NCBI GenBank assembly: GCA_022072165.1
Contig: JAJVIF010000001.1
Location: 1,630,575 to 1,694,574, forward strand
DNA length: 64,000 nucleotides
Source of the DNA: a bacterium
GTDB taxonomy: Bacteria; JAJVIF01
Direction: 5' to 3'
Position numbers and translations under genes: made by a program. This document shows positions 40,203 through 63,671 of the stretch, in pieces. The notes below the pieces were generated by a model. It did not search any database, was not told the origin of the DNA, and worked only from the letters and a program-made list of their open reading frames with translations. Within the stretch, counting starts at the first letter, position 1. Each line of letters opens with the position of its first letter.

Positions 40203-43007
40203 TTACCAGGTGCCGGTGGTGCTGTCCAGCGCGTTGCAGAACGCATCGATGAAGACCCCGGTTCCCAGGCCGACACCTGGACCCGGATCAAAGTCGACAT
40301 TCGCGCTGAGAAAAATCCCGCCCACCCGCAGGGAACCGTTCGGCGCGAGAGCGATCTCATCGACTCCATCGCTGGAGGAACCACCCCAGACCGAGACCCA
40401 TTGTGTGGTCCCGGCAGGATCGAGCTTGATCACCCAGGCATCATCGCTCCCGACGGAGGTAACCGGCCCCAGCCCGAAATCCATGGTTGCTTCGATATCG
40501 CCGCCGACATACAGATTGCCCGCCGCATCAGCCTCCACGGCATAGGCTTCCTGATTGCCGGAGAAATCGAAGTGCCGATCCCAGACATGGGCTCCGGTGG
40601 AGGTGTGCTTCACCACGAAGACATTGCTCGTCCCGCCGCCGCTGCGCAGGCCGCCGCCGTAGTCGATCGATGTGCTGTTGGAATAGCCAGCGATGACCGG
40701 TCCCTGGGACACGGGATCGACCGTGATGTCCCATCCCCATTCCGAAGCGGTGCCGCCAAACTTCTGACTCAGGGTCAGTGCGCCCGCCGGGCTGACGCGC
40801 AGCAGCGGCACATCGTTGCCACCGTTCGAGACCATCGCTCCAAGGCCATAGTCTGCAGTACCGGTGAAGTACCCGGAGACCCAGAGATTGTTGGCCGCAT
40901 CCACTGCGCCGGCATACATGAAGTCTGAGCCAGCTCCGGAGATCGGTGCATCCCACAGGTAGGTCCCGTTGCTGTCGACCTTGATCACCACACTGTCCGA
41001 GCCCTGCGCGACCCGCGGTCCGCCCCCAAAGTCGACCGTTGCCCCAAAGGAGCCCACCAGCAGGATGTTGTTGCTGCTGTCGATGGCCAGGCCCCGGGTG
41101 TTGTCCGTCCCGGAGGTCCCCCCATAGACGCGATCCCAGATGTAGGTGCCTGAAGGGCTCAGCTTCACGATGACGATGTCGTTACCGCCAGCGGAGGTCC
41201 GGACGCCACCACCGAAATCCACCGATCCCCCAAAGAAGCCACCGCCATAGATGTTGCCGGCCGTGTCAGTCACGACCTCCACAATCTGCTGCGCCCCGGC
41301 AGCCGTGATGTGGTAGTCCCACAGGTACGCCCCGGTGGGATCGAGCTTGACGATGTACATGTCGGAAGCCCCACCGTTAGCCCGGGGTCCACCGCCATAG
41401 TTCACCTGCCCCAGACTCGTCGTCTGCTCCGACGAGAAGCCGGTGACGATGGTGTTACCGAATGGATCCACCACCGTGCCATAGATGTACTCCGTCCCGT
41501 TCCCCTGCGGGGCATAGAACCAGCCGCTGAAAGGAGCGGTGACCGTCTCCAGCTCGACCACAAAGGCCTGATAAGTTTCAGGTCGTGGCAGATTGACCGC
41601 CAGCGGCGCGAGGTTCGGGTCCAGGTGGAAGCGCCAGGTACTGGTGTCCAGGCCCGCCTCGACATCAGTCGCCCGCACCAGGCCTGTGTAGGAGCCGGCG
41701 GTTTGCCCGCTGGTGACGGTCTTATCAACGTTGAGGGCGTAGTAGAGGGTATCCCCGGGATGGCCGCTATCGGTCTCCGGATCTCCACCGGGGTCGTTAT
41801 CCACGAGGCTCAGCGCTGGTGCGAAGCTCTGGACCCCCGTCGCATCACCCAGGACCCCGGGGATACAAACGGCCAGCGTGGGGGGGCCAGCCTCCCCAAC
41901 CGCCACAGTCGTGACATCAAGGTCGCCCCCGAGGTCCGCTTCGGCGGTCTCGATCGCCCGGGTATCCCAGTCGGTGACCCGGAAGCTCAGCAGTTGCGTG
42001 GAGCTCTGATCGACGATGAAATTCGCATCGATCCCTTCATAGCTGATCCGCTCGACATCCAGTGCGCCGTGGGGCATCCGGTAGGCGAAGGCCGCAGGAT
42101 CCGGAAAAGCCGGAGGGAGGCGATTCGCTTTCTTCTGCGCGCCAGTCTGGCCCCCCCGGGGGTCGTTGTACTTCGCCAGTATCGCGACATCGAGGCTGAT
42201 GGCACCGCTCCCGAGAGCCGCGATGTTGAGGCTCAGGGTACGTCGAGTCCGCTGTCCCTGGTGCAACACGCCATAGCCAGTCCAGCCGTTGTTGTCAAAG
42301 CCCAACTCATTGCGGGTCCAGCCATCGGACCCAAAGTTCCCCGTCGGCTGTCCACCGTGGGAGATGCCGACCCGGGAGCCATCCAGCCCCGACTCATCCA
42401 CCAGTGCCTGATACGGGAACGTGTTCGCCACTGTAGCGAGATTCAGCAGCCCCTCCGGACGCCAGTACGCATCGGGGTTGGCCACCAGCGCAGTGTTGGC
42501 CACCACCGGATCGCCACCATCCGCAAAGAAGCTATTGCCGGTCGCTGTGGGGACTTCAGCCAAAACCAGCAGGCGACCGGCGATCCCCAGGTCAGCGCGA
42601 TTGGTCCGGCCATTGGGAGTCCCGGTGGGATCCTGCGGAGCCGGGAAGGGGTGCGCCAGTTCCCAGTCGAGATCCAGCGTGCCACCGTTGCGGGTGACCG
42701 ACCGAATCCGGAAGTCCTTTGCACCAAGAAAGCTGTCGATGGAGAGCAGATAAAGGTCATCGGTCTGCGACAGTCCACGGGATGCCAGCAGTTCCGCTGT
42801 GGCAGAGGTCGTAGCCGGGTCCACCGCAATGCGATAGAGCGCCAATGCGCCCTCAGTCAGGCCACTGCTGTCGCGCAGGACTTGTCCCACAGGCAGGGCA
42901 TCCACCGGGGTGGATGATGGTCCAGCGCTGAGGGGCTCTGAAGAAGAGGAGCAACCTGCCAGTGTCAGAATGAACGCCGCCAGGAGAAGGAGCGAGGCAC
43001 GAGACAT
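40203..43007 (-). CDS. Large lipoprotein P2: N-module plus seven-repeat SBBP propeller
   Basis: A 934-residue lipoprotein. The lipobox LTLAGC places the lipidated Cys at residue 19. The shared N-terminal module follows to about residue 490: NRADLGIAGRLLVLAEVP, FPYQALVDES, GISHGGQPTGNFGSDGW, GYGVLHQGQ, FAYRMPHGALDVERI, TDWDTRAIETAEADL, LAVCIPGVLGDA, a DSGHPGDTLYY segment and TYQAFVVEL. The C-terminal part is seven repeats of about 60 residues of SBBP type (pattern GxxxDFGGG...DxxxxKxxxxGxxxW), consistent with a seven-bladed propeller. The last blade has DFDPGPG in place of DFGGG. The protein ends STTGTW. P3 ends 38 bases upstream with no terminator between, so the two form an operon. AAGGA precedes the ATG at 43007. 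Role unknown; surface attachment or recognition is a reasonable guess. Confidence 0.85.
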   Translation of the reverse strand: MSRASLLLLAAFILTLAGCSSSSEPLSAGPSSTPVDALPVGQVLRDSSGLTEGALALYRIAVDPATTSATAELLASRGLSQTDDLYLLSIDSFLGAKDFRIRSVTRNGGTLDLDWELAHPFPAPQDPTGTPNGRTNRADLGIAGRLLVLAEVPTATGNSFFADGGDPVVANTALVANPDAYWRPEGLLNLATVANTFPYQALVDESGLDGSRVGISHGGQPTGNFGSDGWTRNELGFDNNGWTGYGVLHQGQRTRRTLSLNIAALGSGAISLDVAILAKYNDPRGGQTGAQKKANRLPPAFPDPAAFAYRMPHGALDVERISYEGIDANFIVDQSSTQLLSFRVTDWDTRAIETAEADLGGDLDVTTVAVGEAGPPTLAVCIPGVLGDATGVQSFAPALSLVDNDPGGDPETDSGHPGDTLYYALNVDKTVTSGQTAGSYTGLVRATDVEAGLDTSTWRFHLDPNLAPLAVNLPRPETYQAFVVELETVTAPFSGWFYAPQGNGTEYIYGTVVDPFGNTIVTGFSSEQTTSLGQVNYGGGPRANGGASDMYIVKLDPTGAYLWDYHITAAGAQQIVEVVTDTAGNIYGGGFFGGSVDFGGGVRTSAGGNDIVIVKLSPSGTYIWDRVYGGTSGTDNTRGLAIDSSNNILLVGSFGATVDFGGGPRVAQGSDSVVIKVDSNGTYLWDAPISGAGSDFMYAGAVDAANNLWVSGYFTGTADYGLGAMVSNGGNDVPLLRVSPAGALTLSQKFGGTASEWGWDITVDPVSQGPVIAGYSNSTSIDYGGGLRSGGGTSNVFVVKHTSTGAHVWDRHFDFSGNQEAYAVEADAAGNLYVGGDIEATMDFGLGPVTSVGSDDAWVIKLDPAGTTQWVSVWGGSSSDGVDEIALAPNGSLRVGGIFLSANVDFDPGPGVGLGTGVFIDAFCNALDSTTGTW

Positions 43008-43045
43008 GGAGAGACCATCCTTTCGGGTAAGCAAGCGAGAGCGGG

Positions 43046-45898
43046 CTACCAGAGGCCCGTGGTGCTGATGAGCTTGGTGACGTAAGCGTTGTTGTCGCCA
43101 GTCCCCAGGGTCGAAGTGACATCGAAGGTGCCGGGACCAGGATCCAGATCAGCGTGTTCGTTGTAGAACCCGATGACCCAGACATCACCGGCAGGGTTAT
43201 ACGCAGCGCCGTAGCCGCCATTCTGGGCGATTGAGCTGCCACCGGGGTTGTCAACTGAGTGGATAAAGCTGTTCCATTTCAGGGTCCCGGTGGAGGTGTA
43301 CTGCGCCACAAACGTGCTGAGGAAGCTGGTGGGCGACACCGGCCCCAGTCCCAGATCGACCTGCCCCCGGAACCGGCCGGTCCAGGTCACTTCGCCCGAA
43401 GGGTGAACCCCCAGGAACGGCTGGTCATCCTGCAGGTCGCTGGCAAAAATCTTCTTCCAAAGGAGCGCCCCTGTGGGATCCAGTTTCACCAGATAGAGGT
43501 CAGTTGCGAGCGCGCCGCCCCCCGGATTGAGGCCCACCGGACCATCCCCAAAGTTGATACTGAGCGACCGGAAATAGCCCGTCAGGTACCCATTGCCAGC
43601 ACTGTCGACCCCGACATCCAGCCCTTGCTCATTCAGCAGCTCGCCATACTGCTTGTGCCAGAGGAAACTGCCTGCCGTGGAGTATTTCGCGGCCCAGGCA
43701 TCCGAGGCCGAGGTGGCGCTCCCAGGGTAGGTGTTAATGACGCCCCCTCCCAGATCGACATCCCGCGTGAAATACCCGGTCGCCCAGACATTGCCAACGG
43801 CATCGGCAGCTACGCCGTTGATGACATCCGCGCCTAACCCCTGCTGCCGGACATCCCACTGGTAGACACCGGTGGAGGTGCATTTGATGATGGACCCTTC
43901 CGCCGCTGCATCAGCGCCGGTCCTGGTGCCCCCACCAAAATCGATCGTTCCTGACCACTGATTCGCGAAATAGACATTCCCCGCCGGGTCCGTTGTAATG
44001 CCGGTCGCCCGGTCCGTCGCCGATGAAGAACCGTAGTACTTCTGCCAGAGGAAGTTGCCGTTGTTATCGAACTTCACGAAGAAGCTGTCGTTGTTGGTGG
44101 GAGCGCTCATGATCCCGCCACCGAAGTCCAGGTCGCCCCGGATCTGCCCCCCCAGATAAAGATGATCGTTGGCATCCACCGCTACGGCCCAGCCAATCTG
44201 GGCGAACGAGTTGCCGAAGGTCTGGTCCCAGGCGTAGGTCCCATCGGCGTTCAGTTTCAACAGGTAGATATCCGACGAGCCGGCGTTTGCCCGGACCCCG
44301 CCGCCGAAGTTGGTGGCTGCCGCGTAGTACCCCGTGATGTAGGCCGCCCCGGTGCTGTCCACCGCGATGTCATAGGCGAAATCATTGCCGGTCCCACCCC
44401 AGGCGAGACCGAAGCCTGTCGCCGGTGGCGCGGACGGTTCCACGACCACGCTAAACACCTGGTAGGTCTCGGGACGAGGAAAGTTGCCGGCGATCGGCGC
44501 AAGCGAGCCATCCAGGTAGAGTTCCCAGGCGCTGGTGTCAATGCTGAACGCCGCATCCCGGGCCCGCACCAGCCCAGTGTAGGTTCCTGGCGTTTGCCCT
44601 CCGGGCAGCGGGTTATCGATGCTGCGGACAAAGCAGAGGGGGTCCCCCGCAGCACCACTGTCGGCGGCGACATCGCCACCATAGAGGGTGTCGTCATCCA
44701 GGATATCTGTGAGCGGGTCAAAGCTCACCGACACTGACGCATCCCCCAGCACCTCGGGAATGCAGACCGCGAGGGTCGGCAGGCCTGATTCGCCGATGGC
44801 GACCGCGGTGAAGCTGCTGTCGAGGGCGAGGTCGGTCTGGCTCGTCTCGGTCGCCCGGGCATCCCAGTCGGTCACCGCGAAGGCGAGCAATGAGGCAGAC
44901 GCCGTGTTCTCGATGAAGTTGCCAGTGGCTCCCCGAAAGTCCAGACGCTCGACATCCAGTGCGCCATGCGGCATCCGGTAGGCGAACCGCGTGATGTCAG
45001 CATTAGCAGGTGGGAGACGATTCCCCTTTTTCTCAGCAGCAGTGTTGCCGCCCCGGGGGTCGTTGTACTGCGCCAGGACCACCACCTGCAGGGAGAGCGA
45101 CCCAGCCGCTTCCAGTGCGGTGAGGTCGATCTCCAGCTCCCGCTCCGTCACCTGCCCCTGATGCAGGACCCCATAGCCGGTCCACTGGTCCCTGGTCGAG
45201 CCGATTTCCAGGCCCGTCCAGCCATCGTTGCCGTAGTTGCCGGTTGGATTCCCGCCGTTCGAGACCCCCACCCGGCTGCCGTCGCCTGTTTCATCCACGA
45301 GCGTTTGATAAGGAAAGGTGTTGGCGATGCCAGTCGTAGGGAAGAGTGCCCGTGGTCGCCAGTACGCATCCGGATTGCTCACCAGGGCGGTGTTGACCAC
45401 CACCGGGTCCCCTTCTTCGCCGAAGTAGGAGTTCCCCGTCGCGGATGCCACATCGGTCAGATATAGGAGGCGTCCTGCAATCCCCAGATCGGCCCGGTTG
45501 CTGGCACTCGGGACGCCCCCGAGGTCCGCGGGGGCCATAAAGGGATGGGCGAAGCGTTGCAGCAGCGCAATCTTGCCGCTCATCCGCTTCACCGCCCGGA
45601 CCCGGTACGAGTCCGGCCGCAGGAACCCGGAGACCGGCAGGTGATAGAGGTCATCGGTCGCCTGTCCCGAACGGGGAGTCTGTAGCGAGACGGTCGTTTC
45701 CAGCGACTCCAGATCGAGGCTGAGGTCGTAGACCCCCAGCGTGGCTTCGGTCAGTCCATCGGTCCGAAGGAGCACGCCAGTGGCGAGGGCACCCGCCGGT
45801 AACTCTGGAGTGGGAGTTGCGAGTGGGGTGGGGCCAGCGCAGCCAGACATCAGCAACAGACCACAGGGTAGCCACCCCAGGGCGGAACGACGAAGCAT
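43046..45898 (-). CDS. Large lipoprotein P3: N-module plus seven-repeat SBBP propeller
   Basis: A 950-residue lipoprotein with lipobox LMSGC (Cys 20). N-module landmarks include NRADLGIAGRLLYLTDVA, FPYQTLVDETGDGSRVGVSNGG, GYGVLHQGQ, FAYRMPHGALDVERLDF, TDWDARATETSQTDL, GESGLPTLAVCIPEVLGDA, and an Asp/Gly-rich segment DDDTLYGGDVAADSGAAGD. Seven SBBP-type repeats of about 60-70 residues then run to the end, starting at about GTGNDFAYDIAVDSTGAAYITG. The last has HADLDPGPG and the protein ends STTGLW. GGAGG stands 9 bases before the ATG. It is the first gene of the P3-P2 unit and is divergent from tyrS across 205 bp. Confidence 0.85.
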   Translation of the reverse strand: MLRRSALGWLPCGLLLMSGCAGPTPLATPTPELPAGALATGVLLRTDGLTEATLGVYDLSLDLESLETTVSLQTPRSGQATDDLYHLPVSGFLRPDSYRVRAVKRMSGKIALLQRFAHPFMAPADLGGVPSASNRADLGIAGRLLYLTDVASATGNSYFGEEGDPVVVNTALVSNPDAYWRPRALFPTTGIANTFPYQTLVDETGDGSRVGVSNGGNPTGNYGNDGWTGLEIGSTRDQWTGYGVLHQGQVTERELEIDLTALEAAGSLSLQVVVLAQYNDPRGGNTAAEKKGNRLPPANADITRFAYRMPHGALDVERLDFRGATGNFIENTASASLLAFAVTDWDARATETSQTDLALDSSFTAVAIGESGLPTLAVCIPEVLGDASVSVSFDPLTDILDDDTLYGGDVAADSGAAGDPLCFVRSIDNPLPGGQTPGTYTGLVRARDAAFSIDTSAWELYLDGSLAPIAGNFPRPETYQVFSVVVEPSAPPATGFGLAWGGTGNDFAYDIAVDSTGAAYITGYYAAATNFGGGVRANAGSSDIYLLKLNADGTYAWDQTFGNSFAQIGWAVAVDANDHLYLGGQIRGDLDFGGGIMSAPTNNDSFFVKFDNNGNFLWQKYYGSSSATDRATGITTDPAGNVYFANQWSGTIDFGGGTRTGADAAAEGSIIKCTSTGVYQWDVRQQGLGADVINGVAADAVGNVWATGYFTRDVDLGGGVINTYPGSATSASDAWAAKYSTAGSFLWHKQYGELLNEQGLDVGVDSAGNGYLTGYFRSLSINFGDGPVGLNPGGGALATDLYLVKLDPTGALLWKKIFASDLQDDQPFLGVHPSGEVTWTGRFRGQVDLGLGPVSPTSFLSTFVAQYTSTGTLKWNSFIHSVDNPGGSSIAQNGGYGAAYNPAGDVWVIGFYNEHADLDPGPGTFDVTSTLGTGDNNAYVTKLISTTGLW

Positions 45899-46103
45899 GA
45901 GGGAGGTCCTCCAGGCAGGCAGTAACTACGAGAGAGTCGACGGCCAAGAACGGCCTGGCGAGCAGCCACCCCCTGATGGCGGGGGGATTGCCCCTATTGT
46001 TCCACACTCTGTCGTAGTCCGGCACGCCAGGACGCGGGACCGCCCCGGTGTACACTCACTTTCGGCTGATCACTCCGCTGCCACAAAGGAGCCCACTCGT
46101 TCC

Positions 46104-47492
46104 ATGACCGCTCCGGTCCCACCTGCTGACGCGACCCAAGCCCTCCCGCCCGACCTCCAGGGGATGCCTCCGGAGGAGCAGGCAGGCTATGCCGCGCTGC
46201 CAGAGAAGATGAAAGGGCAGCTGCTGAAGGAAATCGACCGCCAGATTTTCCTGATGCAACTCAACGAGGCCACGATTAATCCGGTAGCGGAGCTGCGGCC
46301 CAAGCTCCGGCGCGCTCTGCTGCTGAATCAGCCCCTCCGGGTGAAACTCGGCATCGACCCCTCCCGCCCCGACCTCCACCTGGGGCATACAGTCGTACTG
46401 AACAAGCTCCGGGACCTCCAGGAGCTCGGTCATCAGGCGGTCCTTATCATCGGCGACTTCACGGCCTCCATCGGCGACCCCTCCGGACGCTCCGCCGAAC
46501 GCCCAGCCCTGGACCTCGCGGAAACCAAAGCCCATGCCCAGACCTACTTTGAGCAGGCGGGGCTGGTCATCGACATGCAGCGGGCGGAGGTCCGCTACAA
46601 CTCCGAATGGCTGGAGCATCTCGACCTGACCCGGGTGTTGCAGCTGGCCCGGGTGACGACAGTCGCCCGGATGCTGGAGCGCGACGATTTCTCGAAGCGC
46701 TTCAGCGGCGAAAAGCCGATTTCCATCGCGGAGTTCCTCTATCCCCTGGCGCAGGGCTACGACTCCGTGATGGTGGAAGCGGATATCGAACTGGGCGGCA
46801 CCGACCAGACCTTCAATCTGCTCCTGGGGCGCGAAGTGCAGCGGGCCTGGGGACAGGAGCCGCAGATCACCATCACGTCCCCACTCCTGCCGGGTCTCGA
46901 TGGCAGCGAAAAGATGAGCAAGTCCAACGACAACTATGTCGCGCTGCTGGACTCCCCCTTCGAGAAGTTCTCCAAGGTCATGAGTATTCCGGATTCCGCC
47001 ATGCTCACCTGGTACCGGCTCCTGACCAAGCTGCTCCCGGAGCAGTTCGAAGAACTGGTCGAAGACCTCGCCAGTGGGGCCAAACATCCCAAAGAGGCAA
47101 AGCAGGACATCGCCCGGATGGTGGTCACCCGGTATCACTCCCTGGGGACCGCGGCGGACATGCAGGATCGGTGGGAGGCGCAGTTCTCCCGCAAAGAGAT
47201 CCCCACCGACGTCCCCCTCTTTAATCCCCCTGCGGACATCATGAAAGACGCTGCTCATGCCAAGCTGGTGGATCTGCTGGAGGCAGCGGGCCTGACCCCC
47301 AGCAAGAGCGAGGGACGTCGCCTGATCAAGCAAAAGGGCGTCAAAGTGGATGGCATCGCCATCGAGAACACCGAAGAGGTGCTGGTCCTGGACCGCGAGC
47401 GACTCTTGCAGATCGGGAGTCGCAAGTTCCTGCGGGTCCAGGCGACCGTGAAAGAAGGCGAAGGGGGCGGCGACGCCACCCCCCTCTTCTGA
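46104..47492 (+). CDS. tyrS: Tyrosyl-tRNA synthetase
   Basis: A 462-residue class I synthetase for tyrosine. LGIDPSRPDLHLGHTVVL carries the HIGH motif as HLGH, and SEKMSKSNDNYVALLD carries KMSKS. The tyrosine/tRNA region has GDFTASIGDPSGRSAERP and LGGTDQTFNLLLGR, as in the longer TyrZ-type enzymes. A C-terminal S4 RNA-binding domain begins near residue 395 (TPSKSEGRRLIKQKGVKVDG). About 60 residues precede the catalytic domain. The ATG at 46104 follows AAAGGAG. The gene sits in opposite orientation inside the lipoprotein array, between P3 and P4. Confidence 0.96.
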   Translation: MTAPVPPADATQALPPDLQGMPPEEQAGYAALPEKMKGQLLKEIDRQIFLMQLNEATINPVAELRPKLRRALLLNQPLRVKLGIDPSRPDLHLGHTVVLNKLRDLQELGHQAVLIIGDFTASIGDPSGRSAERPALDLAETKAHAQTYFEQAGLVIDMQRAEVRYNSEWLEHLDLTRVLQLARVTTVARMLERDDFSKRFSGEKPISIAEFLYPLAQGYDSVMVEADIELGGTDQTFNLLLGREVQRAWGQEPQITITSPLLPGLDGSEKMSKSNDNYVALLDSPFEKFSKVMSIPDSAMLTWYRLLTKLLPEQFEELVEDLASGAKHPKEAKQDIARMVVTRYHSLGTAADMQDRWEAQFSRKEIPTDVPLFNPPADIMKDAAHAKLVDLLEAAGLTPSKSEGRRLIKQKGVKVDGIAIENTEEVLVLDRERLLQIGSRKFLRVQATVKEGEGGGDATPLF

Positions 47493-47524: not shown

Positions 47525-50500
47525 TCACCAGAGGCCGTTGCTGTTGATGCGGGAAACGAAGGCCCGATAGATGCCGCTGCCCGGGGTGGACTGGGTAAAG
47601 ACTCCCGGACCCGGCTCGAAATCTTCGGTGCCATCAAACTGTCCGGCGACCCGGCTGCTGCCATCCGGTGCAACCCCAACCCCGAAGGTGTAATCCACCC
47701 CGGTGCCGGTTGCCCAGACTGCGTCCCAGATATACGCTCCCGCGCTGCTGCGCTTACAGAGGAAGCTGCCGAAACTCCCCGGGGCCGTCCGCGGACCGCC
47801 ACCGAAGTTGACCGGTCCGGTATACCCCCCGGCGACCAGCACGTTATTGGCGCTGTCGACCGCGACGCCCCAGGTAGCCCCGCTGCTCATGAACCACCAG
47901 TCCCACTGGTAGACCCCGTTGGCGTCCACCTTCACACAGAACTGATGATCGTCCGGAGCCGTCGTGCTGCCGTAGTTACCATCCCCGAAGGACTTTCCAG
48001 CGAGGATGATGGCGTTGGTGGAATCAATCGCCAGACCCGCGCCCACTTCAGTCTCGCTGCCGCCATACATGTTGACCCACAGCGGGGTCCCCGACGAGTC
48101 CCACTTCATGATGAAGGCGTCGTCATCCAGCTTTGCCGGCTGGGCGCCGAACCCGAAGTCTGGAGTGTTCCGGGTATGCCCTACCACTACCACCGCATTC
48201 GTCGAGTCGAAGGACACATCACCATAAATGTTGATCCCTTGTTCGACATTCCAGACGGGGTCCCAGAGATAGTTGCCGTCGGTGTCGTACTTAACCACGA
48301 ACCGACGGTTGCTTGGGCGTGAGCCGCCGCCGAAGTTCGCGCTGAATGCGAGCTTGCCAGTAAATGCAATCTCAGTCCCGGCGGCATTGGTCCCCAGCCC
48401 CCAACCCCGGTCATCACCACCACTGCTCCAGACCTTGTCCCAGACTGGCACGCCCGTCGGACTCAATTTGACAAGGAAGGCATCACCCCCTGAGCCGCCT
48501 CCAAAGCTCCGGGGCGTCCCAGTGAAGTTGATGTTGCCGCCGAATGCGCCGGTGATGTAGCTGTTTCCCGCAGGATCGATGGTGATGGCCTGAATTTCAT
48601 CGAGGCCAATACTTCCAGTAGTCCAGTGCCACAACAGGGTGCCGTAGGGATCCACTTTGATGACCAGGAGGTCGCCATTGCCAGCGGATGTCACCGGTCC
48701 TGACCCAAAGTCGAACGTCCCCGAGAAGTACCCAGCAGCATAGGTGTTGCCAGCGGAATCGACCACCAGGTCCCAGAAACGACTGGTCCCGATGTCGCCG
48801 CCATAGGACCGGACCCAGCCGGGGATGAACTCCAGCACTTCGAAGTGCTCGTTGTTGCTCCCGACCGGCGGGGTGATGTCGACCGAGATAGTCCCATCAG
48901 AAATGCTCACAGCAAGGGTCCGATAGTCCGGCGCGGGGGGCGTAAAGGTGAAGGTCATGCCGCCATTGGTGCCGGAGTCAAAGGCCAGCGGCCCGGCAGT
49001 CGGAACCGGAATTGGGGCTGTGGTGAAGTCCGGCGTGCCGTCGTCGTTCCAGTCGAAGCTGAGCGTCACGTCATCACCGTCAGCGTCCGCCAGATTGCTG
49101 ACAGTGACCGCGACTACACCGCCGGTCGCGACTTGCGGGCTGGTCACCACAACAGTTGCCGAGGGGGGATCATTGGGGATGGCATTCATGTCGACCCGGA
49201 ACGCCTGGTACGTCACCGGCACCGGGACGTTGGTGGTTACCGGCTGCAGACTGGCATCCAGCGCGATCACCAACCCACCTGCGAGCTGGGTCTCCACATC
49301 GGTGACCCGCACCATGCCCGTGTATGTCCCCGGCGTTTGACCACTGGTCACCGTCTTGGTGACCGTCTTCTCGAAGAAAAGGGCATCGCCCGGCTGCCCT
49401 GAGTCGGGATCGACATCCCCGCCGTAGAGGGAATCATCGTCCAGCAGGGTCCCGGCATCCCAGAGGTCCACCGTACTGCTGTCGCCCAGCACGCCGGGAA
49501 TACAGACCGCCAGCGATGGCACGCCACTTTCGCCGGGGGCGACTTTCGTCACGTCCATGTCCTCAGCGAGATCCTGCTCGGTTGTCTCCATCGCCCGGGC
49601 ATCCCAGTCGATGACCCGGAAGCTGAACGTCTCTGCACTGATGGCGTTGGGCAGGAAGCCTCCGGTCTGATTGATGAGCACGATCCGCTCGACATCCAGA
49701 GCGCCGTGTGGCATCCGGTACGCAAAGAGATTCGCATCAGGGCTCGCTGGTGGCAGGCGGTTCCCCCGCTTCTCGACGCCGGTCCGCCCCCCGCGGGGAT
49801 CGTTGTACTTGGCGATAATCGCGACATCCATCGAGAATGTGTTCCCCGCCTGGAGTGCTGCCAGATCGAGTTGCAGAGTCCGGGATGACGCCTGCCCCTG
49901 ATGAAGCACGCCATAGCCTGTCCAGCCATCGTTCGTCGGACCGAACTCGGCCCGGGTCCAGCCATCGCCACCGAAGTTGCCGGTCGGATTCCCCCCGTTG
50001 GAGATGCCGACACGACTCCCGGTCGCCGTACTCTCGTCGACCAGGGTCTGATAGGGAAAGAGGTTCGCGTTGGTAGTGAGCCCGAGGAGCCCCGCCGGTG
50101 ACCAGTACGCATCGGCATTCCGGACCAGCGCGGTGTTCGCGATCCGGTTGCTGAAGTAGGTGTTGCCGGTCGAGGTCGCGACATCACTCAGAAACAGCAC
50201 CCGTCCCGCAACTCCCAGGTCCGCCCGATTCGTCCGCCCGTTGGGCGTCCCGGTGGGATTCGCCGGTGCCGGGAAGGGATGCCGGAGGGTCCAGTCGAGA
50301 TCGATGGTGGTTGCCGTGCGACGCACCCGGTCGACCCGGAAATCCTCGGCTCCCAGGAAGCTGCTGATGGGAAGCGCGTAGAGGTCATCATTCGCCTGCC
50401 CGGCCCGGGTCTCCCGCAGGCTGACAGTCGCCTGTAGCGCCGCTGGATCAAGCTCCAGCGTGTAGATCGCCATCGCACTTTCGGCGAGGAGCCCGACGGT

Positions 50501-50626: not shown

Positions 50627-50717
50627 AGCAGCTCCTATGTCTCGATGAACGGGTGAGGCGAAAGGGGAGCTCTGGCGATTTCCTGCCAGCCTCGACACCT
50701 TTTATTGTAGCAAGCCC

Positions 50718-54080: not shown

Positions 54081-54216
54081 ACACTGACCTCCTGCTATGC
54101 GAGGGCGCATGGTGAAATACGGTGTCGCCCGGCAATACGCCCAATACCCCCCTGCAACAGGGATACTCAGTACGCGGAGCCGTGGCCACTCCTCGGTTGT
54201 ACGGAAGAGTGGTGAA

Positions 54217-54296: not shown

Positions 54297-57271
54297 CTAC
54301 TGCCAGCCGGCTGGGGGCACCCCCCACACCCGGAAAGTCCTGATACCGGACCCCGATCGGCTGATGAGCCAGTTGTTCTGCGTGTTCACGGAGACCAGAT
54401 ACGGGACTGCCGAGTTGACCCCGGCCGTCTTCAGCAGTTGGGTGGTGAGAATCTGATGATCTTGCCCGTGGTTTGAAGCATTACTCATGTACCCCATCAG
54501 GATGATCTGCGCATCCCCCGGAGCACCGATGAGACTCCCCGTAGAGTCCAGCTCATCCAGCGTGATGTCGTGCGGACGGGTCAGGGTGGTCCAGTCCCCG
54601 ACTTGCAGCACCAGCGGATTCGGGTTGCTGGTGGTGGGGATGGGGTTGTTGAGGCTGCCATCGCACTCAATCCGGAAAATGCGATCAACCCCGGTTGTAT
54701 CCTCGGTCACGATGAACGTCGCTCCGTTGTACCGGCTCTGCACAAAGTCGTGGACATACTGCGTCCCAACCGCGATGTTGTAGGGCCCCGCCGCCAGGTT
54801 CAGCGGGAAAGGCGCCGTCATGTCTTCGGCGTAGTTCGCCCCCCGGGTATAGCGACGCAGGATGTTCTGGTTATCGATGAGCAGCAGGTCATCGTTCAGT
54901 CCCACGGCCAGCGCGACCACCCGGTTGGTCGTGGCGACCGTGTTCATCTGGGCATCCGTCGCCAGTGTCGCACCACCATCGGTGTCGAACCAGACAAAGC
55001 CTGTCGAACCGGTCAGGTAGAAACCGTTGTTCGTCGCACCGTTGGTCGGGCCGATCAGTCCTGTGTTCAGGACGCCGGCATCGCGACGGGCAAAGAAGAC
55101 CCGGTTCAGGCTATCAACCTCGATCTGGTGTACTTGCCGCGCTGTCGTGGGGTCACTCCCCAGAGTCGCCGGGGCATTGGTGAGCTGGATCGAAGAGACA
55201 CCACTGGCCAGGGTCGTACTGTCGTTGGCGTAAATGCGATGGATTTCGTAAGTCGGCGTCGTCGTAATCCGCTGCGTGATCCACCCCGCATTCGTGTTGG
55301 GAGCAGGTGAATTGAAGGTCGGGTTGTGGAAGGCCGCGTAGTCGTAGTCCACCTGTCCGGACGCCATGTCAGCAAAGGAGGGCGAGAGTGTCTCGCCAGC
55401 CAGGATCCCCCACCCGACTCCGAAAGTTGTGGGGTTTGTCCAGGGGGCACCACAACCAGCCGTATTCTCGATGACCGTGAAACTCAGGTTGGGATGGGTC
55501 ACCGGCGCAGCGATGTTATCGGTGTAATGCACCCGCACCTGACGATTGTCGGGATTCGTTCCGCTCCAGACATAGGTGATGGGCGAGGTGAAGTTCACTG
55601 CCGGACCACCCGCCCCGTTGAGCATGTTCCCGGTCTCGCCGACATCGGCGAAGTCGTTGTCGTTGTTCCAGTCGATCAGCACCTCGATGGGATCCCCTTC
55701 GGGGTCGCTATACCCGGTCGCCTGGATGGTGATGGTGCCGCCGTCGAGGATGGTGCTGTTGAGCAGGGCGAACGATGCCACCGGCGGGCTGCTCAGCCCA
55801 TTGATCTGCACCGTAAACGCCTGGAATGTCACCGGGGCCGGGACCGGACTCGCCAGCGTGAGGTCCGGGGCCAGCGCGAAATGCCAGCTGCTCGTGTCGG
55901 CCGCCGCTTCCGGATCGATCGCCATCACCAGACCCGTCGCCGGACCTTCTGTCTGCCCCTCGTCAGGCTGTTTGTCAGGGTCCGGGTGTAATAGAGGCTG
56001 TCGCCCGGCTCGCCAGTATCGAGAGCGGCATCCCCACCCCACAGGGTGTCGTCATCCTGCAGGTCTGTCCCGTTGTCCCAGTTGGCCACCCCGGTACCCA
56101 GAATCGCCGGGATACTGACGGCCAGGGTTGGAGCACCGCTCTCCCCTGCGGCAACATTGGTCAGCACGGGATCAGTGGCCAGGTCAGCTTCCACGGTCTC
56201 CGCTACCCAGGCATCCCAGTCGTCCACATGGAAGTGCAGATCGGCCGCCGAAATCTGATTCACCACGAACCCGCTGCCGGTTTCTCCGAGGAAGGTGATG
56301 CGCTCGACATCCAGCGCCCCATGCGGCATCCGGTACGCGAACGCGTTGATGTCGACCGGCGATTTCGGGAGCCGGTTCGCCCGCTTCGTCGCAGCATTGA
56401 GCCCGACGCGCGGATCGTTGTACTTCGCCAGCACAACCGCATCGAAACTCACCGGCCCACCCAGCGCACTCAGGGCGAGTTGCAGGGTGTTGATCGCGGC
56501 CTGCCCCTGATGCAGGACCCCATAGCCGGTCCAGCCATTCCGCTCCGGACCGATATTGTCCTGTTGCCAGCCGCCGGTCCCGGGGGTGTAGTTCCCGGTG
56601 GGCACACCGCCGTTGGAAATCCCGACACGAGCCCCATCTGGACCCCGTTCATCCACCAGCACGCGATACGGGAACGTGTTCGCGGTGGTCGTCAGCCCGG
56701 GAAGCAGGCCGTCGGGACGGTAATACCCATCCGCGTTCACCACCGTACTGGTGTTGGCCACCACATTGGTGACCCCCGCCGCACCAGCGGCAGCGGTCTG
56801 GAAGTACGTGTTGCCGCTGGCGCTGGGAACATCCATCAGGAAACAGACACGTCCGGCTACGCCCAGGTCCGCGCGATTCGCCGCAGTGGCAGGACCCGCG
56901 AGATTCGTGGGGGCCGCAAAGGGATGCGTCACCTGGTAGGTGATGTCCAGTGTGGTGGCAGAACGACTGATGCCCAGAATCTTCAGCGAGTCCCGTCGCA
57001 GGAAATTGCTGATGGACAGATCGTACACATCGTCGTTGGCCTGAGCGGCATGGTCACTGACCAGTGCGACTGTCCCACTCAGCGTGGCCGGATCAATCGC
57101 GATGGTGTACCGCCCGGCCTGCTGCTGTGCGAGCAGCTCGTTGACCAGCACGGGCAGAGCGCTGCTGGAGGGATCGGACTGGACTTGTGTGACGGAGGGG
57201 CTGGGCTGCTGGCAGCCCGCCAGCAGTGACGTCACCAGGAGACCTGGCAACAGCGGGAGCGAGAGGCGCAT
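54297..57271 (-). pseudogene. Large lipoprotein P6, broken by a one-base frameshift
   Basis: The N-module (lipobox SLLAGC, Cys 20; NRADLGVAGRVCFLMDVP, GYGVLHQGQ, FAYRMPHGALDVERI, LAVSIPAILGTG, DDDTLWGGDAALDTGEPGD) is in one frame and stops at 55925. The rest (PKD-like domain SYSDPEGDPIEVLIDW-type, class 2 C-terminal domain, FRIECDGS, ending VPPAGWQ) continues in another frame to 54297. The switch lies at about 55956-55962. There the paralogs read TSGQTPGTYTG or GSGQVAGDYTG, but here the G-run after ACGA seems one base short. Restoring one base gives a 991-residue protein like the others. Total length 2975 is one base short of a multiple of three. It could be a real mutation, a phase-variable tract or a sequencing error. 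The start is the ATG at 57271 with AAAGGA. Confidence 0.85.
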
Positions 57272-57409
57272 GTGCGTGTTCCTTTGGCGAGAGTCAGACA
57301 CCTTGTGCCCCCCGCAATAGCGGAGGTCACGCAACAGGTGTCTGGGGATAACACTAGGATGCCGCAGGGCTGGTCGTTCCGCAACATGAGGTATCCCACA
57401 GCAGGCAAA

Positions 57410-57439
57410 CAAACGCCCCCCGGCGCAGGCCAGGGGGCG
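57410..57439 (-). terminator. Terminator of P7 (array-type)
   Basis: CGCCCCCTGGC and GCCGGGGGGCG on the minus strand, then GTTTGTTTG. Third copy of the array terminator. Confidence 0.8.
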
Positions 57440-57463: not shown

Positions 57464-60400
57464 CTACGGCAGCGGGCAGACCCGGCTGTAGTAGCGACTC
57501 GCCAGTTCGGGCAGACCGATCCAGTTCTTGCCATCGCGAGCCACCAGCCCGATTTCGGTGGGGCTCTTGATCAGGATCGAGCAGCTCGTGCCCAGGAAGA
57601 TCGGAGGCGCACCGCAGGGGAAGCCGGTCGCGACGTTGGCGTCATCGACGACGGCGACCTGGAAGTCCGCAGCGCTGGTCGGGTTGTTGGTCGTGGCATA
57701 GGCCAGCCGGAAGTCAGAGGTCGGCATCGAACCGAAGGAAACGCAGGACGCGCCTGTATCCAGTGGATTGGTGTAGGCAATCACCAGCCGTCCGTTGTGG
57801 TTCTTGATGTCGATATCGGCGAACTGCACCGTACCCATCGCACCATTGGTCGTGGTGGCAAAGGAGATCGGAGCATTGAAGTCTGCCGGGGCGTTCGGGG
57901 CAGCCACATTCGCCAGGTAGAGATTCACACCGATAACCGGCGTGGCGCTCTGGTTGTAGCAGGCGACCGCGAGGCGCGGGCCAGACCCGGAGTTGTACTG
58001 GGTGAGCGAGGCGTTGGAACCATCACTCGCAGGCGCGTTGATCGCGAAGGGGATCGTCCAGTCTGCCGCGCTCGCAGGCGTGAGGGTGGTCGCCCGGGCG
58101 AACTTCACATCCACGCCGGTTGAGTCACGGAAGACAACCGCCAGGCGAGGACTGACGCCATCATCGAAGCTGTGGATATCGCTCCAGAACCCCAGGCTGT
58201 TCGCGTTGTCTTCCAGCACATACGAGTTCCAGTTGCCAGTAGCGGAAGGGGTCCCCGTATTGGCGATGGCAACACGAATGGAGGCTGCCGCACCGGCATC
58301 ACGGAAGCTGACTGCCGGGACGCCGTTGTGCATCGTGGCACCAAAGGTGAGATGAGCGGTCGTCAGGGCGTCGATCTGGTGCGGCACGGGCCAGTCACCT
58401 GACGAAGTCGGGTTGGTGTTGTTCGCGACCACGCACATCAGGCGGTTCAGGGTGTCATCTTTGTAAATGACCACCGGACGTCCGCCAGCATCCAGCAACT
58501 CGATACCGGTGTCCGTGCTGCCAGCGACTTCCGCGGGGAAGTTCGTGATTTCGTGATTGGTCCAGTCGGTCGTGGCGGTAGGATTCGGAGTCGTCGCCCG
58601 CACCATCCGGACCGAAATCGGCAGACCCGCGGTCCCCTGCGTCACGACATGCACGAAGGCAGGATTCCCACCGATGAGGCCGGCGGAGTTGTAGTACCCG
58701 CCCCGACCATCAATCGAGGATGTCGTATCCGGGAAGTGCTCGCTCCAGGTCGCGGTCACGGTGTAGCTGAAGGGGAAGTTCACCGGCGTGCCGCAGCCAT
58801 TGTCGATGGTCACGGAGCCGTTGTATGTCCCGGCCGCACCCAGGGTCACGGACGGGGTCGCGGATGAGGAACTGTTCGGGGTCGTCCCACCGCCGAAGTC
58901 CCAGCCATAGGTCACGGCCGGATCGCCCGTGAAAGCGACGCTGAAGTTGGCGTTCTGACCGGTGCAGCCGATGCTGCCGGAGGGCGACACCACGCCACCA
59001 CTCGGCGGCGTACAGCTGAGCCCCATCGTCACTGTGAAGGCCTGGTAGGTCACCGGCAGGGGAGTCGTGGTGAGGGGGGTCAGATTGGAATCCAGCCCGA
59101 CCCACAGACCACTCTGGACATCCGACGCCCGGACCATGCCGGTGTAGTCCCCGGCGACCTGCCCGGAACCGGCAGCCTTCGTCACACTCTTCGTGTAGTA
59201 GAGCGCATCGCCGGGACGTCCGGAATCCTGCGCCGCATCGCCACCGAACGCGCTGTCATCATCCTGAACCGTGGTCCCAGGATCCCAGTCATCGGTGAAC
59301 GTCGCATCTCCCAGCACGCCGGGGATACAGACGGAGAGTGACGGCAGGCCGGCTTCGCCCTGCGCCACATTCGTGAAGCTGGCATCGTTCGCCAGGTCCG
59401 CTTCCGCCGTCTCGGTCGCCCGGGCATCCCAGTCGGCGACCCGGAAGTTCATGTCGACCGCCGAAATAGCGTTCGGCGTAAAGGGACCACTGGTGCCCAG
59501 CACTTCGATGCTCGCGACATCCAGTGCACCATGCGGCATCCGGTACGCGAAGAGGCTCGCATCCGGGCTCGCGGGAGGCAGGCGATTGGCCTTCTTCTGC
59601 GCCGGAGTCGCGCCACCGCGCGGGTCGTTGTAGACCGCGACAATCGCCACGTCCAGGCTCGCGCCACCAGACAGAGCACTCTTGTTCAGGCTCAGCGTGT
59701 TCGCGACGACCTGACCCTGATGCATGACACCGTACCCGGTCCAGCCAATGTTGCCGGTCCCAAACTCGGCACGTGTCCAGCCATCGCTCCCGAAGTTCCC
59801 GGTCACATCGCCGCCATTGCTGATGCCGAGGGGGACCCAGGGAGACACACGGGGGTCCAGCGTCTCATCCACCAGCTGGCGATACGGGAACGTGTTGGCA
59901 GTGCCGCTGACGCTCAGCAGCCCGCCAGGGCTGAAGTACGCGTCCGCGTTCGCCACCAGTGAGGTGTTCGCCACGCGATCGGTGAAGTACGTGTTGCCAC
60001 TGGCCGGGGCATCCGCCAGGACCATGACCATCCCTGCCACGCCGAGGTCGGCACGGTTCGTCGAGCCGTTCGGGGTCCCGGTGGGATTGTTCGGCGCCGG
60101 GAAGGGATGCTCGACCGTGTAGGTCACATCGATCGTGGTGGCCGTCGCCGCCAGTGCCCGGACGCGGAACGAGTCCGCCCGCAGGAAGCTGTCGATCGAG
60201 AGCAGATACAGGTCGTCATTGGCCTGTCCCTGACGGGTTTCCTTCAGCCGGCTGGTCGCCTGCAGGCTCTCCGGATCCACCTCGAGGGTGTAGATCGCCA
60301 GCGCACTGGCCGACAGATCGCCATTAATGAATGGCGTACCGAGGGAGCCACCGGCATTCTGAGCGGCCTGCGGCAGACCCGCCGGATCGCCGCCGGTCGC

Positions 60401-60490
60401 GGCTGGCATAAGCGGGGTCTTGCCCCCCCCAGAGCAGCCAAGGGTAGCGAGCAGCGCCGAAGCCGCCAGCCACCAGGTAAGATTGCGCAT
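57464..60490 (-). CDS. Large lipoprotein P7: N-module, PKD domain, six-repeat class 3 domain
   Basis: A 1008-residue lipoprotein that begins MRNLTWWLAASALLATLGC, identical to P8 up to the Cys at 19. The N-module has NRADLGVAGMVMVLADAP, GYGVMHQGQ, AYRMPHGALDVASIEVL, ADWDARATETAEADL, CIPGVLGDA and DDDSAFGGDAAQDSGRPGD. A PKD domain follows (VTYGWDFGGGTTPN). The C-terminal domain is unlike any other in the array: six repeats of about 60 residues with the pattern [VR]xxANTxxPTxxxDW, for example VRMVRATTPNPTATTDW and FRLAYATTNNPTSAADF, which looks like another propeller. It ends YYSRVCPLP, without the PPxGWQ or GLW ending. GGAGG precedes the ATG at 60490 by 5 bases. A promoter is predicted about 165 bases upstream. 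Confidence 0.85.
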   Translation of the reverse strand: MRNLTWWLAASALLATLGCSGGGKTPLMPAATGGDPAGLPQAAQNAGGSLGTPFINGDLSASALAIYTLEVDPESLQATSRLKETRQGQANDDLYLLSIDSFLRADSFRVRALAATATTIDVTYTVEHPFPAPNNPTGTPNGSTNRADLGVAGMVMVLADAPASGNTYFTDRVANTSLVANADAYFSPGGLLSVSGTANTFPYRQLVDETLDPRVSPWVPLGISNGGDVTGNFGSDGWTRAEFGTGNIGWTGYGVMHQGQVVANTLSLNKSALSGGASLDVAIVAVYNDPRGGATPAQKKANRLPPASPDASLFAYRMPHGALDVASIEVLGTSGPFTPNAISAVDMNFRVADWDARATETAEADLANDASFTNVAQGEAGLPSLSVCIPGVLGDATFTDDWDPGTTVQDDDSAFGGDAAQDSGRPGDALYYTKSVTKAAGSGQVAGDYTGMVRASDVQSGLWVGLDSNLTPLTTTPLPVTYQAFTVTMGLSCTPPSGGVVSPSGSIGCTGQNANFSVAFTGDPAVTYGWDFGGGTTPNSSSSATPSVTLGAAGTYNGSVTIDNGCGTPVNFPFSYTVTATWSEHFPDTTSSIDGRGGYYNSAGLIGGNPAFVHVVTQGTAGLPISVRMVRATTPNPTATTDWTNHEITNFPAEVAGSTDTGIELLDAGGRPVVIYKDDTLNRLMCVVANNTNPTSSGDWPVPHQIDALTTAHLTFGATMHNGVPAVSFRDAGAAASIRVAIANTGTPSATGNWNSYVLEDNANSLGFWSDIHSFDDGVSPRLAVVFRDSTGVDVKFARATTLTPASAADWTIPFAINAPASDGSNASLTQYNSGSGPRLAVACYNQSATPVIGVNLYLANVAAPNAPADFNAPISFATTTNGAMGTVQFADIDIKNHNGRLVIAYTNPLDTGASCVSFGSMPTSDFRLAYATTNNPTSAADFQVAVVDDANVATGFPCGAPPIFLGTSCSILIKSPTEIGLVARDGKNWIGLPELASRYYSRVCPLP

Positions 60491-60683: not shown

Positions 60684-60700
60684 TCCGCCAGCCAGGTGAC

Positions 60701-60735
60701 AACAACATCGCAGCCCCCGTCGGAACGGGGGCTGC
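60701..60735 (-). terminator. Terminator of P8
   Basis: GCAGCCCCCGT, loop, ACGGGGGCTGC: an 11-bp perfect stem, followed on the minus strand by GATGTTGTTG, a weak T-rich exit. It lies 42 bases after the P8 stop. Confidence 0.75.
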
Positions 60736-60776
60736 GGCAAGGTTGGTGGTTCGTAAGAACCGGGGTTATGGAGTGG

Positions 60777-63671
60777 TTACTGCCAGCCGGTGGGCGGGAA
60801 GTTCCCGGCGGTGCCGTGGATGGCGATAATCCCGGTCCCGAAGGAGGGGCCCATCGCGGCATAGAGCCAGTTGTTCAGTCCCACAGAGCCGTTGTTCATG
60901 CCGATGTCGCAGCAGCCGAACGGATCCCAGTTCTGGGACGTGGACTGCGTCAAATCGGCGGTGAAGATCCGGACTTCCGGCTCGGGATCCGTGTTCGGGA
61001 TCATCCGGTTGCCATAGACCACGATCTGCCGGTCGGCGTTGCTCAGTGGCGAGATGGCCGCGCCGGTGGTGTCGCGGGAGTCGATGTGAATGTCACCGTA
61101 CTGGTTCTGAGTGGTGGAGTAATTCAGGGCGAACCCTGCACTCCGCGTAGAGGAAGAACCATCGCAGGCGACCTTGTAGATGTACGCGTTGCTGGCAGCC
61201 GCTTCCTGGCTCTGCGCCAGGATATAGAGGAAGCCACTGTAGGCGTTCACTTCAAAGTCATGGACCTTGATGTTTGTCGCCGGCGTGCCGCCCGTCGGGT
61301 TCATCGGCTGGGAGATGGTCTTCAGGTCGATGGGGAAGGGGCAGCTGGTTTCTTCCGCGTAGGAACCACCAGTCAGCTTGTGGAGGATGTTGTTCTGGTC
61401 GATGTACCAGACATTCCCTGCCGCGTCCACATCCATCGCGATCACCCGGTTCGCACCGGTCGAGATGGTGGTGTGACTCGCGTAGGGAATGACTCCAGTC
61501 AGATCAAAGTACCGAATGTTCGCCGCCCCGCCAGTCGCACCGTAGTTGTACAGCGGGTTATTGCGACCCGTGCCGATCTGCGAGGTGACATATGTCGAGT
61601 AGAAGACGCGGTTGGTCGCACTGACATCAATCTGGTTTACCTGGCTCGTAGCCGGGAATCCTGAAGTGACCGTAAAAATAGAGGCGCCAGCGTTGGGGGC
61701 CGCTGCGGTCGCTACAAACACCACCAGGTCAGCCGTCGCGGCGGCTTTCTGCTGGACGATCACGCCACCGTTGGGATGCACGATCCCTGACTTCATCCCT
61801 TCCATGTCCTGCGGGCAGAAGGTCGCGCTGTAGTTGTAGAACCCGCCCACGCCGGTGTAGCCCAGGCCCGAGGTCAGCGGAGTCGCCACGAATGGAGCAG
61901 TCGGGCAGTTCTGCAGCACCTGAATAGACTGTGTGGGAGTGAGCTGGGTGAAGGTGGTGCCATCATCCAGCCGCACCGGGACCTGGCGGTTGTCCGGGGC
62001 AGGACCATTGAAGGTGAACGTGATGGGCGAGGCAAGCGGCACCGTCGCCGGATACGGCGAGTTGACGGTCGTCGCCAGCGTGTAGGTGCCATCGTTGTCC
62101 CAGTCCACGAGGATGTCGATGGGGTCGCCATCGTCATCGTTCGGGGCCGTGACCGTCAGGCCAAACGCGCAGTTCTCCGCGACCGTTGCCGCGTCCATCG
62201 CGTAAGTCCCGGTGGGGGCGGCATTGTCGGGGAGCATTTCCACGGTGAACGCCTGATAGGTGACGGGATCCGGGGTGCTCGGCAGGGGAGCGAGGGACTC
62301 ATTGAGTCCGATGGTCAGGCCGGTCTGCGGATCGGTCGCGCGGACCATCCCCTTGTAGAACCCAGCTACCTGACCGGAGCCAGCGAGCTTGGTGACCAGG
62401 GTGCTGTAGTACAGCGCATCGCCAGGGCGCCCGCTGTCCTCATCCACATCGCCGCCGACGCCGGAGTCGTCATCGACCACGGTCGAGGCATCCGCCGTCA
62501 CCGTCGCATCACCCAGGACATCCGGGATGCAGACATCGAGGGTCGGGGTGCCCGACTCGCCCTGCGCCACGTTGGTGAAGCTGGAGTCGTTCGCCAGATC
62601 CGCCTCGGCGGACTCGGTCGCCCGGGCATCCCAGTCTTCCACATGGAAGCTCATGGTCTGCGCGGAGATCGTGTTGGCGATGAAGCCAGCGGTTTCGGGC
62701 AGGACGGTGATCTTGCCGGCATCCAGGGCTCCGTGGGGCATCCGATAGGCGAAGAGGCTCGCATCCGGACTTGCCGGAGGCAGGCGATTGGCCTTCTTCT
62801 GCGCCGCCGTCGCACCACCACGCGGATCGTTGTAGACCGCGATGATGGAGACATCGAGGCTGAATCCACCCGTGAGGGCCGCTTTATTCAGGCTCATGGT
62901 GTTGGTGACTGACTGGCCCTGGTGCATGACGCCATAGCCGGTCCAGCCGTTGTTGCCCGTACCGAACTCACTCCGGGTCCAGCCATCGCTGCCGAAGTTG
63001 CCAGTGACATCGCCGCCGTTGGACACGCCCACGCGGGGATCCAGCGACTCATCCACGAGCTGCTTGTACGGGTAGGTGTTGGCGGTGCCGGAGGTCGTCA
63101 GCAGCCCGCCGGGGCTGAAGTACGCATCGGCGTTCGCCACCAGGTCCGTATTCGCCACGCGGTCGGTGAAGTAGGTGTTCCCACTCGCCGGCGCATCGGC
63201 CATGATCAGGACCATCCCCGCCACGCCAAGGTCGGCGCGGTTGGTGGACCCGTTGGGGGTCCCGGTGGGGTTATTCGGGGCCGGGAACGGATGCTTGACC
63301 ACATAGCCCAGGTCGATGGTGGTCGCCGTGGCCGTAATGCCCGTGATCGCGAAGGACCCGGCATTCAGGAAGCTGTCGATCGAGAGCAGATACAGATCGT
63401 CGTTGGCCGCGACCGTCCGGGTCTCCTTGAGCCGGCTGGTCGCCTGCAGCGAGACCGGATCAATATCCAGCGTGTAGATCGCCAGCGCAGCGGTCGCCAG
63501 GTCCCCATTGATAAACGGGGTACCGAGCGCACCACTGGCGCCCAGAGCAGCCTGGGGCAGTGTGGCGGAATCCGGTGCGGTCTGCGGAGCCGTCACCGGA
63601 GAGCCACTCCCCGAGCACCCAAGCGTGGCGAGCAGCGCGGATGCCGCCAGCCACCAGGTGAGATTGCGCAT
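60777..63671 (-). CDS. Large lipoprotein P8: N-module, PKD-like domain, class 2 C-terminal domain
   Basis: A 964-residue lipoprotein. Signal peptide 1-18, lipidated Cys 19. The N-module spans about 55-478: NRADLGVAGM at 144-153, GYGVMHQGQ at 245-253, NDPRGG at 281-286, AYRMPHGALD at 308-317, EDWDARATESAEADL at 345-359, GESGTPTLDVCIPDVLGDA at 371-389, DDDSGVGGDVDEDSGRPGD at 400-418, TYQAFTVEM at 471-479. A PKD-like domain (about 483-587) and the class 2 domain (about 600-964) follow, the latter with VNQIDVSATNRVFYST, NVWYIDQNNILHKL and YKVACDGS, ending PPTGWQ. The upstream AGGAGGACATC is the same as for P7, so P7 and P8 are recent duplicates at the 5' end. Exposed or periplasm-facing location is inferred; no enzyme motif is seen. 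Confidence 0.87.
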   Translation of the reverse strand: MRNLTWWLAASALLATLGCSGSGSPVTAPQTAPDSATLPQAALGASGALGTPFINGDLATAALAIYTLDIDPVSLQATSRLKETRTVAANDDLYLLSIDSFLNAGSFAITGITATATTIDLGYVVKHPFPAPNNPTGTPNGSTNRADLGVAGMVLIMADAPASGNTYFTDRVANTDLVANADAYFSPGGLLTTSGTANTYPYKQLVDESLDPRVGVSNGGDVTGNFGSDGWTRSEFGTGNNGWTGYGVMHQGQSVTNTMSLNKAALTGGFSLDVSIIAVYNDPRGGATAAQKKANRLPPASPDASLFAYRMPHGALDAGKITVLPETAGFIANTISAQTMSFHVEDWDARATESAEADLANDSSFTNVAQGESGTPTLDVCIPDVLGDATVTADASTVVDDDSGVGGDVDEDSGRPGDALYYSTLVTKLAGSGQVAGFYKGMVRATDPQTGLTIGLNESLAPLPSTPDPVTYQAFTVEMLPDNAAPTGTYAMDAATVAENCAFGLTVTAPNDDDGDPIDILVDWDNDGTYTLATTVNSPYPATVPLASPITFTFNGPAPDNRQVPVRLDDGTTFTQLTPTQSIQVLQNCPTAPFVATPLTSGLGYTGVGGFYNYSATFCPQDMEGMKSGIVHPNGGVIVQQKAAATADLVVFVATAAAPNAGASIFTVTSGFPATSQVNQIDVSATNRVFYSTYVTSQIGTGRNNPLYNYGATGGAANIRYFDLTGVIPYASHTTISTGANRVIAMDVDAAGNVWYIDQNNILHKLTGGSYAEETSCPFPIDLKTISQPMNPTGGTPATNIKVHDFEVNAYSGFLYILAQSQEAAASNAYIYKVACDGSSSTRSAGFALNYSTTQNQYGDIHIDSRDTTGAAISPLSNADRQIVVYGNRMIPNTDPEPEVRIFTADLTQSTSQNWDPFGCCDIGMNNGSVGLNNWLYAAMGPSFGTGIIAIHGTAGNFPPTGWQ

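Follow-up and report, generated by a model that had tools for sequence, protein, structure and literature searches.

Lipoprotein genes in the window

Within the window, i.e. the whole stretch of 64,000 nucleotides that was analysed, seven lipoprotein genes of about 1000 residues each were confirmed at positions 40203-63671, all on the minus strand. Copy 1 (P0001, 943 aa; 40203-43034) carries the lipobox LTLAGC, an N-terminal module (N-module; ~41526-43013) and a tail formed by an SBBP-type beta-propeller (~40203-41525). Copy 2 (P0002, 950 aa; 43046-45898), with the lipobox LMSGC and its N-module at ~44417-45898, has a C-terminal SBBP propeller as well (PF06739, E=2e-8), and in copy 3 (P0003, 1057 aa; 47525-50698; lipobox GLTSC) the N-module (~49178-50632) is followed by a linker and an SBBP propeller. 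The tail of copy 4 (P0004, 1003 aa; 51099-54110; lipobox AALGC; N-module ~52611-54089) consists of a linker and a propeller-like part and is related to that of copy 7 (P0008, 964 aa; 60777-63671; lipobox ATLGC; N-module ~62208-63671), which comprises a linker and an NHL-like propeller. Copy 6 (P0007, 1008 aa; 57464-60490; lipobox ATLGC; N-module ~59000-60490) likely starts at 60490 and not at 60862, and its tail, which contains a PKD domain (E=1e-6), is unrelated to that of copy 7. A full-length AlphaFold2 model of copy 7 was moderate (pLDDT 70, pTM 0.53) and served solely as support for the predicted NHL-like propeller tail, which matched NHL-2 with a TM-score by target of 0.59 when the model was searched with Foldseek.

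Copy 5 (54297-57412) is broken. It represents one gene in two frames, an N-module ORF (55925-57412) and a C-terminal ORF (54297-56042), with profile positions 8-426 and 419-477 in different frames and the frameshift near 55930-55990, and may be either a real pseudogene or the result of a sequencing error. The initial annotation had described the seven genes as an array. While the genes, their coordinates and their strand all stand, they do not form a single uninterrupted run because the unrelated housekeeping gene tyrS (45741-47492, plus strand; TIGR00234, E=2e-100) separates copies 2 and 3. An eighth copy (951 aa), with its own signal and lipobox (ALLGC) and an N-module at ~26006-27424, is located on the plus strand at 25946-28801. 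Adjoining the array, the plus-strand stretch 37380-38696 shows an EntD-like cell-wall-binding C-terminal domain (E=5e-22).

A beta-rich module outside known families

The N-module is about 450 residues long. The ordered motifs reported in the initial annotation recur in an alignment of 46 modules, in which HP, R.DL, W, R.P, Y..P and D.D vary little or not at all, and a signature composed of HP, R.DL or FDVRG, NADGY, Y..P and D-W-D/Q is found in all versions of the module. The identity among modules falls to about 25%. The versions in two of the related genomes (G001 and G003), together with many distant copies in the source genome, also hold a PC..C pair. In the G001 and G003 modules this pair (PC..CF; alignment A6, residues 91-94, first row) is invariant, and a disulfide or a metal site is possible.

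That the module belongs to no recognised family was borne out by Pfam, NCBIfam, PDB sequences and PDB folds alike. No accepted Pfam or NCBIfam match to the N-modules of the window proteins was obtained, two sets of 46 modules scanned one by one against Pfam gave only scattered single-member matches (E 0.0045-0.1), and two profiles found no match to the N-module among PDB sequences. The HMM search suggested earlier likewise matched no characterised family and recovered the module in every same-class relative examined, and the structure prediction, also suggested earlier, gave a confident all-beta AlphaFold2 model (module of copy 7, 46-row alignment; pLDDT 86.6, pTM 0.85) for which the PDB offers no counterpart across the whole domain. 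Foldseek against the PDB returned nothing at E<=0.001, with a TM-score by query of at most ~0.17 among the matches listed, and a library of viral structures gave two weak matches (TM <= 0.16, rmsd > 22). Partial Ig-like matches to RbmA, sulfite oxidase, NPC2 and complement were rejected, as their TM-scores are too low for a common whole-domain fold. Because the Foldseek search of the PDB gave no whole-module match, the predicted module probably consists of common Ig-like sandwiches whose arrangement has no solved precedent.

Family size in the source genome

The genome (3.26 Mb in four contigs, 99.1% complete) contains far more copies than those in the window. Copy 7 used as a query gave 79 matches in it (E as low as 0), profile A1 gave 145 match pieces with E-values to 1e-195, which rule out an explanation by chance motifs, and profile A2, derived from distant members, gave 142 match pieces. 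An iterated HMM applied to the stretches around the profile matches identified 135 ORFs encompassing 377 kb, or 11.6% of the genome. When split genes are joined and the three loci found by A2 only are added, the family totals about 136 loci, which is a lower estimate because the two profile searches scored part of their first-look candidates only. The seven genes are thus a small sample of the family and the original observation was understated; its claim that the module must matter to the organism is strengthened by the roughly 136 genes, by their share of the genome and by their conservation across the class. The copies are distributed across all four contigs, most of them solitary or in small groups, and the longest runs comprise 5, 5 and 8 members. 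Single internal stops are found in the copies at C4:33652, C2:381351, C1:158428 and C2:420681, and these copies may be pseudogenes or reflect read errors.

Seven complete-looking modules of 408-581 residues stand alone without cargo (C1:1020125, 1278884, 156544, 158416, 160213 and 837536; C2:639142). They count in favour of the platform reading given below, but could also mean that the module itself does the work. Together with the very high gene dosage and the beta-rich architecture, such stand-alone modules would suit a surface coat or lattice in which the modules form the layer and the tails are decorations. This is nevertheless unlikely, as modules sharing as little as about 25% identity are unlike a single S-layer protein and as the cargo includes enzymes (see below).

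Lipoprotein signal and predicted location

A lipobox was recognised by pattern in 125 of the 135 ORFs of the source genome and in 72 of 83 sampled ORFs of its relatives, and the same pattern approach identifies the arrangement typical of a type II signal peptide, a hydrophobic signal followed by the lipobox cysteine. The residue after this cysteine is never Asp, the classical residue for retention in the inner membrane. A BamA homologue is present (E=7e-63, below the family cut-off) and indicates that the organism possesses an outer membrane. A Lol system was not clearly recognised, the match to the LolCE model falling below its cut-off. Because of the lipoprotein motif, the lack of Asp at position +2 and the BamA homologue, the family fits outer-membrane lipoproteins, and we infer an outer-membrane and surface location for it.

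Restriction to one deep lineage

Among the three other genomes compared from the same uncultured bacterial class, 137 (G001), 118 (G002) and 119 (G003) match pieces were found. Outside the class, none of 381 genomes gave a match when two different profiles were used and the best few candidates per genome were scored, nor did 50,697 phage and 72,556 plasmid records searched by tblastn with one module. As only three same-class genomes were compared and the next kin share no rank below the domain, the lineage appears small and deep. The relatives, traced via the rpoB signature IQNHFRKGL, are the metagenome-assembled genomes (MAGs) LacPavin_0920_SED3_MAG_49_9, AUK107 and CSMAG_1386, the last labelled Planctomycetota by its submitters and the other two just 'bacterium'; AUK107, going by its name, probably originates from Auka vent sediments. 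Literature searches retrieved no description of the module family or of these MAGs, and no paper naming AUK107. CSMAG_1386 (L183; DAOVJF010000005.1), although labelled Planctomycetota, was placed in the class of the window genome, with which it has the rpoB signature and the module family in common, and its label may be wrong.

A quick tree of 206 modules, for which the sampling of the relatives was biased, grouped 74 modules of the source genome in a single clade of its own, with the remainder mixed among genomes. Going by this topology, the common ancestor probably possessed several copies already, and a further expansion followed.

Diverse cargo behind a constant module

The informative part of the family is its C-terminal halves, which carry unrelated cargo domains including enzymes. 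The tails mostly comprise 300-900 residues, reaching about 1250 in the relatives, and BLAST clustering separated those of the source genome into 34 largely unrelated groups, the largest with 59 members. Scans for domains covered 69 tails from the source genome and 68 from its relatives, and PKD domains were found in 25 and 22 of these, respectively. Propellers and repeats are represented by NHL, SBBP, LVIVD, DUF5122, BNR, FG-GAP and PQQ, besides Ig-like repeats, and the tails of the relatives include LVIVD (E=2e-104), SBBP and PQQ domains as well as a clostripain-type peptidase (E=7e-32). One tail (L075) contains a MauG-type di-haem peroxidase (PF03150, E=1.6e-49) with two CxxCH motifs, as is characteristic of the MauG/MbnH group, and the short tail at C1:1196350, which also has a CxxCH motif, looks like a small cytochrome c judging by its sequence. 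The zinc motif HExxHxxGxxH/D is found in five tails, with M12/M57-type scores near or below the cut-off except for one M57 match at 28.5 bits (cut-off 21); motifs aside, the metallopeptidase and GH43 matches are weak, and so is a metallo-beta-lactamase match among the tails. Two hydrazine-synthase-like matches, an alpha-like domain in the tail of L106 (C1:1874937-1878428; E=3e-11) and a weak PQQ/hydrazine-synthase-beta-like propeller at 29487-31001 in the window (E=1e-9), probably reflect general propeller similarity, though the two occur in one genome. Since many tails match no family, we infer part of the cargo diversity from the lack of similarity. The proposed role in adhesion or recognition is backed for the propeller, PKD and Ig-like cargo only.

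No domain known for anchoring or sorting stood out among the 25 commonest families of each tail scan. This agrees with a reading in which an undescribed outer-membrane translocation system, dedicated to these approximately 136 proteins as its cargo, recognises them by the N-module, much as type IX secretion does its own cargo by a conserved C-terminal domain. The occurrence of the same conserved module on unrelated proteins, enzymes among them, in all members examined of a single lineage points the same way. Such a system is the closest rival in principle to the interpretation given below, yet it seems doubtful, as a signal of 450 residues at a lipoprotein N terminus would be unusual and as the neighbours of the copies are unrelated housekeeping genes with no conserved partner gene adjoining them. 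In the neighbour comparison, no gene family adjoined more than two or three of the copies, and the recurring cases were unrelated genes which by sequence resemble an aminotransferase, a UvrD-type helicase, a MiaB-type enzyme and an acyl-CoA dehydrogenase.

Mosaic genes and the source of new combinations

Two neighbouring genes just outside the window (C1:1694601 and C1:1698503) have a common block of 1516 nt, 98.5% identical overall and 100% identical through most of the module, which stops 16 nt beyond the module, after which the tails show no BLAST match to each other. Likewise, C1:1016325 and C1:1022273 are 99.9% identical over 2280 nt, followed by a drop to about 52%. Identity of 100% that includes silent sites and then falls suddenly can result from copying or recombination, but not from different selection on the two halves. 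Another pair, at C1:1622303-1625245 and 1627718-1630525, immediately left of the window, represents a distant family member that was recently duplicated as a whole gene; the two are 99.9% identical over 2.8 kb and differ in their upstream DNA. Among 70 pairs from the source genome with N-modules at least 60% identical, the tails gave no match in 28, a clearly weaker or partial one in 40 and a comparable one in 2, and the same trend was seen in the relatives, with no tail match in 18 of 28 pairs (G002) and in 6 of 11 (G001); the between-species control for tail divergence was very small, with four pairs. Recent exchange at high identity is documented in two pairs only, and the remaining contrasts between N-modules and tails stem in part from a module that diverges more slowly under constraint.

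Simple multiplication of a polymer-binding lipoprotein into paralogues, with faster-evolving C-terminal halves and no modular exchange, would be in line with most pairs, which show no recent exchange, and with the 59 members of the biggest tail cluster. It is improbable all the same, since rate differences cannot yield N-module DNA of close to 100% identity that drops abruptly to background, and since the tails belong to unrelated Pfam families. The initial annotation had named antigenic variation as one possibility. In antigenic or phase variation, a subset of the copies would be expressed and recombination would alter the displayed surface. Although recombination among copies, one broken copy and several with internal stops could be read in that way, this now seems very unlikely: instead of one expression site with silent cassettes, nearly every copy has a full-length frame and a signal peptide of its own, and arrays of silent cassettes were not observed. 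Furthermore, the identical part is the N-module and not the tail, the tails differ by domain type and not merely in loops, and the relatives are environmental MAGs that give no hint of a host immune system.

Comparison with known surface protein families

In the type IX secretion of Bacteroidota, cargo proteins carry a conserved C-terminal sorting domain (PMC10202324). The present family resembles type IX cargo in that one conserved module is joined to many unrelated secreted proteins, including peptidases and adhesins, and in being a large, lineage-restricted cargo set. It differs in that the module is N-terminal, about 450 residues long, putatively lipid-anchored and found in another lineage; no Por secretion sorting domain was detected in the window proteins, or among the 25 commonest families of the other tails. 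The PE/PPE proteins of mycobacteria, with more than 100 copies making up about a tenth of the genome, combine a constant N-terminal domain with a variable C-terminal half, and in copy number, genome share and layout the two families are alike. PE and PPE domains are, however, helical and secreted by the type VII system, whereas the module here is predicted to be all-beta and bears a lipobox, and the window N-modules gave no Pfam match of any kind, including to a PE or PPE domain. Copies 1-3 share the combination of a lipoprotein with a C-terminal SBBP propeller with the LipL53 family of Leptospira (NF047494), to which they score 81-87 bits (copy 1, 87) through the propeller part only and short of the cut-off of 400, but tails of the SBBP type are a minority here. 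In Rhs and polymorphic toxin cores, too, recombination links a constant N-terminal part with variable tips, but no Rhs core, toxin or immunity genes were recognised here, where the cargo consists of propellers and Ig-like repeats along with a few enzymes. In its way of working the family resembles both type IX cargo and PE/PPE proteins without belonging to either, and its domain is undescribed.

A putative lipoprotein display platform

We consider the family to be, with fair probability, a lineage-specific platform for the display of lipoproteins whose cargo is swapped by recombination. At the level of sequence this is supported by the lipobox, the constant module, the diversity of cargo, the sharp identity breakpoints, the lineage restriction and the copy number, and at the level of modelling by the predicted all-beta module and propeller tail. 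Because it is constant on so many unrelated cargoes, the module is best seen as the platform itself, be it an anchor, a spacer or a targeting unit. Following the type II signal peptide and lipobox, the first cysteine would be lipidated and the protein likely sorted to the outer membrane, where the compact beta-rich module would hold, space or expose the C-terminal cargo. The probable binding partners of the propellers and of the PKD or Ig-like repeats are polymers, cells or proteins, and the cargo of some genes would be enzymatic (metallopeptidase-like, clostripain-type peptidase or MauG-type di-haem peroxidase). The repertoire would grow as genes are duplicated and as recombination links different cargoes with N-modules that are nearly identical. 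More tentatively, the module may be the targeting or anchoring part of an undescribed, phylum-specific surface-display system of the rank of type IX secretion, which would build most of the surface-exposed enzymes and receptors and gain new ones when other cargo becomes attached to the copy of an N-module.

One undescribed domain, named in none of the databases searched, takes up over a tenth of a 3.3 Mb genome. It defines a dominant family of over 100 copies in every member examined, which annotation of genomes from this class misses, and the module can serve to diagnose the lineage. Should it prove to be a display platform, the cell surface of these bacteria would be built from a constant lipid-anchored base with exchangeable cargo, and the preserved recombination breakpoints would reveal how new surface proteins get assembled.
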